Source of the DNA: Thalassotalea euphylliae
GTDB lineage: Bacteria > Pseudomonadota > Gammaproteobacteria > Enterobacterales > Alteromonadaceae
Assembly (NCBI RefSeq): GCF_003390395.1
Contig: NZ_QUOV01000001.1
Location: 3,224,001 to 3,288,000, forward strand
Length of the DNA: 64,000 nucleotides
Direction: 5' to 3'
Shown: piece after piece, positions 5,479-64,000 of the stretch
Numbering within the stretch: position 1 is the first letter of the stretch
Layout of the letters: each line of letters starts with the position of its first letter
Program-made: the position numbers and the translations under genes
Notes under the pieces: model-generated
The model's input: the letters and a program-made list of their open reading frames with translations, nothing else
What the model was told of the DNA's origin: nothing
Database searches by the model: none

Positions 5479-6019
5479 CTTCCACCTCCAAATAATCTTT
5501 CAGTTTATCAAGGGCACTGTACAGTCGAGACTTGGCGGTATTGGTTGATATGCCCAGTTGCTGTGCAATTTCCTCAAAGGTGAATTGCTGAAAAAACTTC
5601 ATCTCCACCATAATTTTTTGATTAAATGCCAAACGCTGCATCGCTTGATGCAATGCTTGGCTCTGCTGTCCCTGAGTAAGCCCAGTATCTAAACAAGCAT
5701 CTTGGCTTTCATCTACTTGCTCAGGCACATCATCGATCGACTGCAGTGGCCTTTTCTTTCGATAATATTCAATGCAACGGTAGTGGGCAATTTTAAACAA
5801 CCAGCCCTTAAATGGGCTGTCGCCACGAAACGTACTTAAATTACGGTAAACCGCAATAAATATATCCTGCATTAAATCCATAGCATCATCTGGATGATTG
5901 ACCATGCGATAGGCGTAGTTATAAATGCCACTTTCGTAGCGCTTTACTAAACTCGCCCACGCAGATTTTTTCCCTTTGAGTGCTTGCTTGATGAGCGACT
6001 CATCGCTTCGTTCGAACAC
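5465..6019 (-). CDS. ECF-family RNA polymerase sigma factor
   Basis: 184 aa, the usual size of an extracytoplasmic-function sigma factor. Region 2 (about residues 22-90) includes the YNYAYRMVNHPDDAMDLMQD core-binding helix and a GWLFKIAHYRCIEYYRK segment. Region 4 (about residues 125-178) ends in the helix-turn-helix FEEIAQQLGISTNTAKSRLY. The start is GTG at 6019 with AGGAAG upstream. It is first in an operon with its likely membrane anti-sigma partner and a periplasmic coiled-coil protein. There is no rseA/rseB-type neighbour, so it is not the housekeeping RpoE; its regulon cannot be read from this window. Confidence 0.92.
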   Translation of the reverse strand: MFERSDESLIKQALKGKKSAWASLVKRYESGIYNYAYRMVNHPDDAMDLMQDIFIAVYRNLSTFRGDSPFKGWLFKIAHYRCIEYYRKKRPLQSIDDVPEQVDESQDACLDTGLTQGQQSQALHQAMQRLAFNQKIMVEMKFFQQFTFEEIAQQLGISTNTAKSRLYSALDKLKDYLEVEDVAA

Positions 6020-28902: not shown

Positions 28903-29832
28903 TTAGAATTTGTATTCTACACCAACTGCTAAGTAATCTTCGTCAGCTTGGCTATCCATATCAAATGATGTGAAGTAACCGAATACTTTTGTGCTTTTCG
29001 CTAACTTGTAGTCAGCACCAACTGTGAAGCCAGACTTGTCGTCACCGCCATCAGTGTCAGCAGTTTGAACTTGTGCTTTAAGGTCTAAGTTCTTCATAAC
29101 GCTGTATTTAGCAGAAACCATGAAGCCGTCTGTTTCAAAGTCGCTATCAACTTTCTCTTGAGTTTGAGCAATAGCACCTAAAGTAACACCAGCCACTTTA
29201 GTTGAAGCAACAATACGCGCTACGTCGTAACCATTAACTTCTGAGTCAACAGCAACTGCTGCGTAGAATTTTGACTTCTTAAGGCCAGCATCACCGTATG
29301 CTAATGAAGCAGAAATACCGTCTTCAGCATCAAGGCTGTCTTCAGCAATGTATGTTAGTGCTAATTTGAAGTTGGCAAATTTTGGCGACTTGTAAGTGAT
29401 GGTGTCAGCAAGACGGTTTTCACCTTTCCAAATTTGCTTAATATCACCATCAAGGTCGCTGAATAAATCTACTTTACCTTGAGCTTTTTTCAATGCTGTA
29501 TCGTTTTTACCTAACAATACTTCACCGAAACCACCTTTAAGGCCAACGTATTGATTACGAGAACTAATGTTGTCATCGCTATCACCGTCCATATCAACTT
29601 TGAACTCAGCTTTGTAAACAACTTCTAAACCATGACGTAACTCGTGGCTACCTTTTAAGCCAATGCGAGAGTTATGGCTTTTAACTTCAGTGAAAGAACC
29701 TTCGCCTTCGTCAGAGTTTTGCACTGTTAAAATAGCTTTACCGTATACATCAACAGTAGCCGCAGAAGCTGCGAATGAAGAAGCAGAAAGAATCGCTAAA
29801 GCGATAGCTTGCTTTGTAAATTTCATGCTCAT
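28903..29832 (-). CDS. Outer-membrane porin, probably phosphate-regulated
   Basis: 309 aa. The signal peptide ends ASAATVDVYGK, the typical start of a Gram-negative general porin. The SRIGLKGSHELRHGLEVVYKAEF and NQYVGLKGGFGEVLLGK stretches match the porin family, and the C-terminus ends in phenylalanine (VGVEYKF), the BAM recognition signal. It forms an outer-membrane diffusion channel. The Pho box upstream and its place next to phoB suggest a PhoE-like role in anion or phosphate uptake under starvation; that part is inference from regulation and context. Confidence 0.9.
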   Translation of the reverse strand: MSMKFTKQAIALAILSASSFAASAATVDVYGKAILTVQNSDEGEGSFTEVKSHNSRIGLKGSHELRHGLEVVYKAEFKVDMDGDSDDNISSRNQYVGLKGGFGEVLLGKNDTALKKAQGKVDLFSDLDGDIKQIWKGENRLADTITYKSPKFANFKLALTYIAEDSLDAEDGISASLAYGDAGLKKSKFYAAVAVDSEVNGYDVARIVASTKVAGVTLGAIAQTQEKVDSDFETDGFMVSAKYSVMKNLDLKAQVQTADTDGGDDKSGFTVGADYKLAKSTKVFGYFTSFDMDSQADEDYLAVGVEYKF

Positions 29833-61736: not shown

Positions 61737-62357
61737 TTAACCAAAGAATAATCGCCATAACCAGCCATGATCTAATTCTTCTTCACAGCTTTTTAATTGG
61801 CTGGAATAGCGGCGAGCACGATTGTCTACCTTACGCGACACCTTCACCAACCAAGGTTTTTTCTTGTAGGTTTTACGTTTAAAGCCGCCCCAGCCTTCGT
61901 GATAGTTCAAGTACTGATTGTAGGCATCCCATTTTGATACTTTATTGATTTTTTGCGTTTTAAATATAAACCAGCCCATAAAATCAATTGCATCATCAAA
62001 GTCATCGCGATCGGCACCCGAATTATCAGTTTCGCGAATGTAGTCATCCCATGTCATCGTCTTAGCCTGAGAGTAACCGTAGGCACTGCTTACGCGCCCC
62101 CATGGAATAAAACCAAGCAAGTAATCACGTGGTGGTAGCGCATCATGCCTAAAGGAGCTTTCTTGATACATCATCGCCATTGGCACATGAATAGGAACGC
62201 CCCAACGCTCACGCGCATCTTTTGCAGCAAAATACCAATCGCGGTGCTCGCGAAAGATTTCACAGATATTTTCAGGATTTTTTGGAGGAGGCGTTGCACA
62301 GCCAGCAAGTAATATTGTGCTGAGCAAGCTAATCAGAAACAGCTTAGTTTTACGCAT
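61737..62357 (-). CDS. Lipoprotein with lytic-transglycosylase (SLT)-like domain
   Basis: 206 aa. The signal peptide ends in the lipobox LLAGC (Cys20), so it is a lipoprotein; no Asp follows at +2 (Ala21), favouring the outer membrane. The domain has MYQESSF with the catalytic-type Glu66 and SSAYGYSQA like the SLT fold, then GWFIFKT and YLNYHEGWGGF. A role in peptidoglycan cleavage is inferred; the substrate-binding loops are shortened relative to Slt70. It is divergent from the small-RNA array on its right. Confidence 0.85.
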   Translation of the reverse strand: MRKTKLFLISLLSTILLAGCATPPPKNPENICEIFREHRDWYFAAKDARERWGVPIHVPMAMMYQESSFRHDALPPRDYLLGFIPWGRVSSAYGYSQAKTMTWDDYIRETDNSGADRDDFDDAIDFMGWFIFKTQKINKVSKWDAYNQYLNYHEGWGGFKRKTYKKKPWLVKVSRKVDNRARRYSSQLKSCEEELDHGWLWRLFFG

Positions 62358-62435
62358 AAAACAACTAAATTGAAAAAGTAAGCGACTTGGTAGGGTTATG
62401 ATGCCAGAGCATTAAAAAAAAATCTTACCTTTCTT

Positions 62436-62463
62436 GGAACTTTTTGTTTTTACATCACTCTTA
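62436..62463 (+). promoter_or_regulatory. Sigma-E-like promoter of sRNA unit A
   Basis: GGAACTT at 62436-62442 (the RpoE -35 consensus), a 16-bp spacer and TCTTA at 62459-62463. The predicted 5' G (62470) is 34 bases from the first base of the -35 element, the same as in units B, C and D. Confidence 0.7.
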
Positions 62464-62469
62464 CTAAAC

Positions 62470-62541
62470 GAGAGACTTTTGTTATATTCCCCTTTTGGAT
62501 ATTCATCGCGCTATTCTTTTTAAGCATAGCGCGTTTTTTTT
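62470..62541 (+). ncRNA. Putative sigma-E small RNA, unit A
   Basis: Predicted 72-nt transcript. It begins GAGAGAC, contains a UUCCCCUU pyrimidine motif and AUUCAU, then the terminator CGCGCTAT (62507-62514) with ATAGCGCG (62526-62533) and eight T. No known RNA family is recognised by eye. Structure and position match units B-D. It would act in trans: there is no gene downstream on this strand, so attenuation is unlikely. Confidence 0.72.
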
Positions 62542-62625
62542 GCCCTGAATTTGCTGCCCAAATCACTATTCAAAACTTAGCCACACATCTCACTTTTACT
62601 TTTCTTAAAATTTTTTCAATTTAAT

Positions 62626-62653
62626 TGAACTTTACTATCAAGCATGACTCAAA
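62626..62653 (+). promoter_or_regulatory. Sigma-E-like promoter of sRNA unit B
   Basis: TGAACTT at 62626-62632, a 16-bp spacer and TCAAA at 62649-62653. The predicted 5' G is 62660, again 34 bases from the -35 start. Confidence 0.72.
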
Positions 62654-62659
62654 CAAAGT

Positions 62660-62733
62660 GAGAGAATTACTCCCTTAGTGTTTTTATGTTTTTGAGCGCG
62701 TTTACCTGATAGCAGTGTAAACGCGTTTTTTTT
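62660..62733 (+). ncRNA. Putative sigma-E small RNA, unit B
   Basis: Predicted 74-nt transcript. It begins GAGAGAA, has ACUCCCUUAGUG (complementary to AGGGAG-type ribosome binding sites), a U-rich stretch, then a strong stem CGCGTTTAC (62697-62705) with GTAAACGCG (62717-62725) and eight T. It shares CCCTTAGTGTTT with unit C. The most typical member. Confidence 0.77.
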
Positions 62734-62806
62734 GCCTGTTATTTATCTCTGCTTTTATCTCAGCTTTCGACAATTCTTATTGTTTAACAAAAAAGCCAAA
62801 ACTTTG

Positions 62807-62834
62807 TGAACTTTTAGCGCAATACCCTGTCCTA
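62807..62834 (+). promoter_or_regulatory. Sigma-E-like promoter of sRNA unit C
   Basis: TGAACTT at 62807-62813, a 16-bp spacer and TCCTA at 62830-62834. The predicted 5' G is 62841, with the same 34-base offset. Confidence 0.72.
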
Positions 62835-62840
62835 ATAATT

Positions 62841-62917
62841 GAGAGACTTATTTTCCCTTAGTGTTTCATGAGATTTGATGCGTTTAACTGATTTTTACCA
62901 GTAAACGCATTTTTTTT
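62841..62917 (+). ncRNA. Putative sigma-E small RNA, unit C
   Basis: Predicted 77-nt transcript. It begins GAGAGAC, has UUUUCCCUUAGUGUUUCAU, and ends in a stem ATGCGTTTA-CTG paired with CAGTAAACGCAT (62878-62910, one bulged A) followed by eight T. A closely related sister of unit B. Confidence 0.77.
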
Positions 62918-63040
62918 GTCTGAAATTTGAGAGTTCTTGAAAAGTTAGAGAAAAGTTAAATAAGAACAACAAGTTGCCAGTAGATTCAGAAAATAAGTTA
63001 GCGATTATAAAAACATAACAGAAATATATCGAACATTTTT

Positions 63041-63068
63041 TGAACTAACCGGATTAGTACTGGTCGAA
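63041..63068 (+). promoter_or_regulatory. Sigma-E-like promoter of sRNA unit D
   Basis: TGAACTA at 63041-63047, a 16-bp spacer and TCGAA at 63064-63068. The predicted 5' G is 63075, again at a 34-base offset. Confidence 0.7.
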
Positions 63069-63074
63069 GTGTTT

Positions 63075-63140
63075 GAGAGCAAAACCTCCCTGGACTGCTT
63101 TCATATTTTAGTAGCGCGTTGCCCTAACGCGCTTTTTTTT
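63075..63140 (+). ncRNA. Putative sigma-E small RNA, unit D
   Basis: Predicted 66-nt transcript. It begins GAGAGCA, carries CCUCCCUGGACUG and UUUCAUAUUUUAG, and ends in GCGCGTT (63114-63120) paired with AACGCGC (63126-63132) and eight T. The most divergent and shortest copy, with the strongest CUCCC (anti-Shine-Dalgarno) motif. Confidence 0.72.
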
Positions 63141-63223
63141 GTCTGGTACTTTCGTCTGATAGTTTTCTGAACAGTGCCTAACAATTCGCGACATGACTTT
63201 TGGTAAGTGTGTTTGAATTATCG

Positions 63224-63251
63224 AAAAAAGAGCTAGAGGTAACCCTAGCTC
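63224..63251 (-). terminator. Terminator of gshA
   Basis: GAGCTAG (63230-63236) pairs with CTAGCTC (63245-63251). On the minus strand six T follow, just beyond the gshA stop codon. Confidence 0.88.
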
Positions 63252-63254
63252 CCA

Positions 63255-64000
63255 TTATGCTTTGAAATAATCAGCTAAGAAGCTATCAAAGTCTCGCGTA
63301 TCGTTTTCTTCAATCGCTTTTTGATCAAGGTGAGATTGTTTTGCCGCTTGCGTTAACATCTCCAGATCAAATGTTTGATAACCATTAGCCATTTGCTGTT
63401 CGCGGTATTCACTCGCTTTACCTAATGCTAATGCTGTGTATTTCGCTTCTTGGTTAACCACCATATCTACTAGCTTCGCAGAAGGCGTTAAGCTCGCATC
63501 TTTAACTTTGGCAAACTCGCTGCTCGTCACCACTTGGTAATCGTCCGCACCGTAGGCCTTATCTAACAGCTTAGCCACTTGCATAAACTCTTCAAATAGC
63601 TCACCACCCCACTCTGGGATGGTTTTACATTGATTGTCATCGTTAAGCTTTAGCTCAGGTTCACGGCCGCGCAGCACCACTTTATCCATATTGTGCTCAT
63701 AGCGTTTTTGTAGCTCAGCTGTCATCTCTGGGCTAGGTGCTAGTGCACAGTAGGTTAAAAATACATCGAGGAAACGCATTTGCTCAAGGCTAATGCCCGT
63801 TGCGGAGAATGGGTTAACATCTAACGCACGCACTTCAATATATTCAACACCGCGACGCTGCAATGCTTCTGAAGGCTTTTCTCCTGACTCCGCTACGCGT
63901 TTAGGACGAATAGGCGCGTACAGTTCATTTTCAATTTGCAAGACATTGCTGTTTAGTTGGCGATATTCACCATCTACCTTAACGCCAATTTTATCAAAAT
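63255..64000 (-). CDS. gshA: Glutamate-cysteine ligase (partial, 5' end outside window)
   Basis: C-terminal part of about 248 codons; the gene continues past the right edge, as the frame reads IGVKVDGEYRQLNSNV before LQIENELYAPIRPKR. The full enzyme should be about 520 aa. It joins glutamate and cysteine in the first step of glutathione synthesis. Family motifs are IENELYAPIRPKR, GVEYIEVRALDVNPF and MRFLDVFL. An internal TTG at 63941 could look like a start, but the conserved sequence continues upstream without a break. Confidence 0.95.
   Translation of the reverse strand, partial: FDKIGVKVDGEYRQLNSNVLQIENELYAPIRPKRVAESGEKPSEALQRRGVEYIEVRALDVNPFSATGISLEQMRFLDVFLTYCALAPSPEMTAELQKRYEHNMDKVVLRGREPELKLNDDNQCKTIPEWGGELFEEFMQVAKLLDKAYGADDYQVVTSSEFAKVKDASLTPSAKLVDMVVNQEAKYTALALGKASEYREQQMANGYQTFDLEMLTQAAKQSHLDQKAIEENDTRDFDSFLADYFKA

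Follow-up and report, generated by a model that had tools for sequence, protein, structure and literature searches.

A tandem array of four putative sigma-E-type small RNA genes at the MicA place beside gshA in Thalassotalea euphylliae

Escherichia coli MicA pairs with ompA, and the general roles of sigma-E small RNAs (sRNAs) are well established. E. coli K-12 has the order luxS (minus strand), micA (plus) and gshA (minus), with nine bases from the end of micA to gshA. The available part of PMC2956633 likewise describes MicA as a classical sigma-E sRNA of E. coli that adjoins gshA. VrrA and MicV of Vibrio cholerae are, according to the accessible portion of PMC7602753, sigma-E sRNAs that have a pairing domain in common and target outer-membrane protein mRNAs; compared by description only, they resemble the units reported here as sigma-E sRNAs with predicted action on outer-membrane mRNAs. 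Homologous sRNA copies, some in tandem and with shared as well as separate targets, are described in the excerpted text of PMC4211561 for OmrA/OmrB, PrrF, AbcR, csRNA and Qrr, and LhrC is known, from similarly partial text, as homologous copies like other multicopy sRNAs. What was available of these sources makes no mention of a sigma-E array where MicA lies, and the open-licence literature, supplements excluded, yielded nothing on this array. In Alteromonas macleodii Te101, three sRNAs (Aln1a-c) are encoded in one 404-bp intergenic region; as far as the accessible part of PMC5864184 goes, they are CsrA-sequestering RNAs at another locus and not base-pairing sigma-E RNAs. The 127 chromosomal sRNAs of Te101 in the same partial text may include a single-copy form of the array unit. 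The earlier note on this DNA knew of no described tandem four-copy RpoE sRNA family next to gshA and called the array likely new; as a statement about RpoE sRNAs beside gshA in general this is not supported, because E. coli has MicA there, oriented the same way (PMC2956633, available part). Three features do seem to be new: amplification in tandem at this place, diversification of the 5' parts and, for one unit, a TonB-receptor target.

The window, a 64-kb stretch of T. euphylliae DNA, contains four plus-strand units in tandem between two minus-strand genes. Upstream is a gene for an SLT_4 transglycosylase-domain protein (61737..62357, minus strand; PF19489, E 1.2e-82), occupying the position held by luxS in E. 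coli. Downstream is the 3' part of gshA, encoding glutamate-cysteine ligase (63255..63998, minus strand; TIGR01434, E 4e-73; PF04262), which continues beyond the window; since the window cuts the frame, the TIGR01434 score is below the whole-protein cut-off, and the complete open frame in the genome has 544 aa. The order is therefore SLT minus, array plus, gshA minus, and the position of the array beside gshA on the same strand as E. coli micA points to an amplified MicA-type locus. Between the flanking genes (62358-63254) there is no open frame of at least 40 aa, the longest being 38 aa, which agrees with the earlier description of a stretch without protein genes.

All four units follow a common plan, in which GAACTW-N16-TCNNA-N6-GAGAG leads into a 5' part rich in C, then a GC hairpin and a run of eight T. 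The promoter-start pattern begins at 62437, 62627, 62808 and 63042, has no other match on either strand of the window and was matched in full in 0 of 5000 dinucleotide shuffles of the array region, upholding the proposal of an RpoE-like promoter and GAGAG start at each unit. By pattern match, promoter 1 (GAACTT-N16-TCTTA; 62437..62463, plus strand) precedes unit 1 (62470..62541, plus; 72 nt), which has a MicA-like 5' part, GAGAGACUUUUGUUAUAUUCCCC, and a terminator at 62506-62541. Promoter 2 (GAACTT-N16-TCAAA; 62627..62653, plus) precedes unit 2 (62660..62733, plus; 74 nt; class B, ACUCCCUUAGUGUUUUUAUG), and promoter 3 (GAACTT-N16-TCCTA; 62808..62834, plus) precedes unit 3 (62841..62917, plus; 77 nt; class B, UUCCCUUAGUGUUUCAUG). 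Promoter 4 (GAACTA-N16-TCGAA; 63042..63068, plus) precedes the gshA-proximal unit 4 (63075..63140, plus; 66 nt; class A), whose core is CCUCCCUGGACUGCUUUC. These unit boundaries are exactly those given in the earlier note. Without the GAGAG start, GAACTW-N15-17-TCNNA also occurs on the plus strand at 2844 and 18634, as possible sigma-E promoters or by chance.

Single-strand folding z-scores against shuffles were -2.4, -4.2, -5.4 and -4.1 for units 1-4. A sigma-70/terminator scan detected the terminator of unit 4 alone, and those of units 1-3 were found with looser hairpin rules. The eight T were said to be followed by G(C/T)CTG, which is correct for unit 2 (GCCTG) and units 3 and 4 (GTCTG) but not for unit 1 (GCCCTG). 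As in multicopy tandem sRNAs, neighbouring homologous units each have their own promoter and terminator, and a tandem homologous family with sRNA anatomy is supported. The four units are not equivalent, since unit 4 forms its own class, units 2 and 3 have a common 5' part and unit 1 is unlike both.

The genome encodes RpoE (TIGR02939, 316 bits), and GAACTTTATGAGATGCGTATAGTCATA (GAACTT-N16-TCATA), 89 bases upstream of the start of the rpoE match, has the same form as the array promoters. The E. coli micA promoter and start read GAACTC-N16-TCTGA-N6-GAAAG. Because rpoE and E. coli micA have promoters of like form, we infer that the four array promoters are of the sigma-E type. A second RpoE-like sigma factor frame lies at 5498-6010 of the window (minus strand; 78.5 bits, below the curated cut-off).

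Compared with a genome of the same genus whose GshA is 87% identical (G006), the 5' parts of the own genome (G000) were identical at 36/36, 35/35, 35/35 and 38/38 positions, 144/144 in total, with terminators 88-100%, promoters 59-89% and spacers 36-56% identical. Against genome G005, 5' parts were kept at 97% in units 3 and 4, 75% in unit 1 and 63% in unit 2, with spacers at 11-41%. Purifying selection on the 5' parts is evident from these comparisons. The earlier note had taken hairpin arms that vary while pairing is kept as the sign of selection; the variation is real, yet the hairpins are terminators, of which kept pairing is expected, so the unpaired, frozen 5' parts are the better sign. 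In a selection of 21 class B units (alignment A5), all but one of the 17 positions of UCCCUUAGUGUUUCAUG were invariant. This figure is flattering, because alignment A4 has 36 class B type units and those dropped from it to make A5 include window units 1 and 2 and other, badly aligned ones; fewer positions were invariant in the wider set (n=36). In the class B terminator stem, 75.5% of cells were paired and 20 cells were changed on both sides (0/500 shuffles). The hairpin of model R2 is one column out of register (21% of cells paired), so its matches rest on primary sequence. CUCCCU-GA was invariant in 16 selected class A units, in an alignment (A3) that misplaces some 5' ends and excludes Colwellia class A units with a long insert 5' of the terminator. 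Of 32 arrays, 20 have the CCCTRGA core in their gshA-proximal (last) unit; among the 76 other units, one has it.

The core of unit 4, CCUCCCUGGACUGCUUUC, is complementary to the ribosome-binding sites of TonB receptors. In a duplex test within the own genome, 49 window genes served as the comparison for 47 outer-membrane leaders, which were drawn from 30 of the 38 TonB plug genes and from matches to beta-barrels and porins; unit 4 reached -31.1 and -30.5 kcal/mol with the TonB receptors L155 and L158, against -24.1 for the best window gene, and when folding of the complete unit 4 RNA was taken into account the gain came to -15.6 (L155) and -14.1 kcal/mol (L158). Searched against the genome, the class A model returned the antisense of the L155 leader as its fourth match (E 7.8). 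Taken as a group, outer-membrane leaders did not surpass window genes for unit 4 (p 0.97 by energy, 0.095 by shuffle-corrected z), which argues that its targets are few. CCAGGG occurred within 60 bases 5' of the start in 20 of 30 leaders of L155 homologues, a count in which the L221 motif lies well upstream and three leaders come from near-identical species; the ten leaders without it include some paralogues, and the controls in the own genome were 0/49 window genes and 2/47 outer-membrane leaders. The pattern GTCCAGGGAG-N3-9-ATG gave 33 matches in 23 of 60 genomes versus 5 for the reversed pattern. Thirty of the 33 were read: 21 lead into a frame of 400 aa or longer, with a TonB plug domain in all 21, and the remaining nine have shorter frames of 1 to 279 aa. 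A hairpin before the GTCCAGGGAG motif, such as CACTAA..TTAGTG, was seen in 14/21 TonB leaders (L227, L229-L239, L242-L246, L248, L250, L253, L255) versus 14/49 window genes (Fisher p 0.003).

When class A units of Colwellia-like genomes were paired with a leader of their own genome (13 pairs, 12 genomes), 0/200 shuffles were as good in 11 pairs and 1/200 and 2/200 in the other two; the duplex in G005 reached -43.5 kcal/mol over 27 pairs with one break. Single-copy units of more remote genera, from eight genomes, fitted the TonB leader less well, with 1 to 31 of 200 shuffles as good. Complementarity to the ribosome-binding sites of outer-membrane mRNAs, as expected of a sigma-E sRNA, is thus present for unit 4 and TonB receptors, and unit 4 probably represses TonB-dependent receptors by covering this site.

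For units 1-3, the group test of outer-membrane leaders against window genes gave p values of 0.025, 0.066 and 0.32 by energy, so that by this measure the leaders did no better for unit 3, and of 0.0 (as printed, three places), 0.026 and 0.021 by shuffle-corrected z, respectively. Exact complements of unit 1 of 9-11 bases were present in 6 outer-membrane leaders, versus at most 8 bases in the window genes listed. The porin L192 was considered as a conserved target of unit 1 and dropped, since its close homologue is restricted to G001. Pairing of class B units and of unit 1 in their own genomes was mostly no better than shuffles, apart from unit 2 with the L155-type TonB leader (1/200 shuffles in each of G000, G001 and G006) and, in G027, a single class B unit (1/200). 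A candidate class B target pattern, CACTAAGGGA-N2-12-ATG, was rejected after 15 matches versus 7 reversed in 36 genomes and none in the own genome. Within the window, at 28957-29802 on the minus strand, lies the genome's top Porin_4 match (136 bits).

The distribution of units was examined beside gshA. Of 60 genomes, counting the own one, 56 had a gshA match, and flanks were read for 50 of the 56; a further sample comprised the best 80 named gshA loci among the matches listed. Up to 1.7 kb from gshA, a promoter-plus-terminator scan gave 145 matches on the expected strand and 5 on the opposite strand, compared with 2 in shuffled sequence and 6 and 0 per strand in farther flanks. With two duplicate loci removed, this amounted to 141 units in 128 gshA loci, own included. 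No unit was detected in 66 loci, one in 29 and two to six in 33, counts to which two loci (L060, L081) contribute flanks of less than 200 bases and in which the scan misses some units: L050's MicA, those that the broad model R3 finds in L035, L036 and L047, and an L009 unit with an AAACT promoter. On held-out loci, R3 returned E values of 3e-11 (L036), 1e-8 (L035), 1e-6 (L023) and 4e-5 (L047), and on Photobacterium 0.04 (L122) and 0.14 (L103); weak R3 matches (E 0.01-0.5) were excluded from unit counts. Both methods detect units beside gshA elsewhere, and conservation in relatives is supported.

Colwellia/Thalassotalea-like genomes commonly have arrays, which are present in Paraglaciecola as well. 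Seven genomes of the window's genus have 3 or 4 units, and 4, 4 and 6 were detected in Colwellia psychrerythraea, C. piezophila and Colwellia sp. 39_35; among named Colwellia/Thalassotalea-like loci, L059 and L070 have one unit and L067 and L076 none. The scan detected a unit in 0/26 Vibrio-type loci, a difference from VrrA and MicV, and in 2/7 Photobacterium loci, both groups having been assembled by hand from titles. In contrast to the known multicopy sRNAs, copy number at this one locus ranges from one to six detected units among relatives, which show, as far as sequence can tell, that the array grew by gene duplication. Five tandem units at L016:2446-3139 (G031), four of them nearly identical including promoters and about 155 bases apart, are a recent amplification. 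Three units were detected in Paraglaciecola polaris and four in Paraglaciecola sp. 20A4; the Paraglaciecola arrays at L085:4278-5106 (4 units) and L082:3852-4484 (3 units) have GTGTGTTTTAGTTTATGTGTGTTTCC 5' parts that differ from the window's, which suggests separate amplification. In another family of the order, L038:5453-5802 (G049) has three sigma-E-type units with TTTCATGACAT 5' parts, 1.3-1.6 kb from gshA.

The explanation judged probable is that a MicA-type locus of a marine gammaproteobacterium was tandem-duplicated to four separate sigma-E-driven sRNA genes. Outer-membrane stress would free sigma-E, all four promoters would fire, and four RNAs of about 66-77 nt, each ended by its own terminator and presumably using Hfq, would pair through their mostly unpaired, frozen 5' parts near the ribosome-binding site of outer-membrane mRNAs and block translation. 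Unit 4 would cover the Shine-Dalgarno of the UCCAGGGAG leader and silence TonB-dependent receptors; unit 1, the copy nearest MicA, would lean towards outer-membrane proteins generally; units 2 and 3 may have other or overlapping targets, unit 2 fitting the L155-type TonB leader (own genome, G001, G006). A wider reading, tentative and with chances somewhat short of even, is that the MicA place acts as a hotspot for repeated amplification of a sigma-E sRNA cassette, whose 5' parts diversify and whose members divide the outer-membrane proteome among them, with unit 1 as a MicA-like generalist, unit 4 as a TonB-receptor specialist and units 2 and 3 as further members; such arrays would have arisen more than once (Colwellia/Thalassotalea-like genomes, Paraglaciecola and perhaps others). 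On the probable explanation, a textbook one-gene regulator would become a family with natural copy numbers of one to six at one fixed place, and since copy number varies at one place, sRNA birth, dosage and target splitting could be read from related genomes. The proposed link would connect envelope stress to TonB-dependent nutrient uptake in marine bacteria via a leader motif that can be searched and mutated.

Position and promoter suggest that every unit descends from an ancestral micA. Like MicA (RF00078, E. coli and relatives), the units lie beside gshA on the same strand, transcribed opposite to it, measure about 70 nt, end in a terminator and have a sigma-E-type promoter with equal spacing to a GARAG start; unit 1 only also has GARAGA...UUUGUUAU...CCC in common. 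MicA is one copy with luxS as neighbour, whereas the array has four copies, an SLT neighbour and a unit 4 apparently directed at TonB receptors, and is unscored by the MicA model: RF00078 gave five matches in the own genome (E 0.54-8.6), none at the array and none over the cut-off. No Rfam family reached gathering score over the array, and 14 sub-threshold matches to unrelated families at a permissive threshold were taken as chance. Judged from sequence, the array would act in the manner of MicA, and it belongs with MicA in place and promoter but not in Rfam score. An independent invention, in which a lineage-specific sigma-E sRNA family settled beside gshA with no descent from micA, is considered unlikely. 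It fits the failure of sequence models to join MicA to the array units, R3 not detecting at E 1 the MicA of L050 (a genome of the same order with Rfam MicA beside gshA, 79.8 bits), the absence of most of the MicA 5' part from units 2-4, whose alignment to E. coli MicA is no better than shuffles, and the SLT gene in place of luxS. However, place, strand and promoter-start spacing equal those of micA, the single-copy units L024, L049, L103, L113 and L122 have CAUCCCUG in common with MicA, and just 2 of 5000 shuffles aligned to E. coli MicA as well as unit 1 (four units tested).

Less probable still is a dosage array of four RNAs with the same job, whose additional copies merely increase output. 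Near-identical copies in the relatives L016, L065 and L063 and the fit of the L155 leader to both unit 2 and unit 4 speak for it, but in the window's genus the 5' parts differ among units and each is unchanged across species, and CCCTRGA is concentrated in the last unit of arrays at the frequencies given above. That the units serve in cis, as antisense or terminator elements for the gshA 3' end or the SLT gene leader, is very improbable: although they are antisense in direction to both neighbours and promoter 1 lies just 80 bases from the SLT start codon, the unit terminators precede gshA, the frozen segments are the 5' parts rather than any overlap with a neighbour, and the trans complementarity to TonB leaders is conserved.
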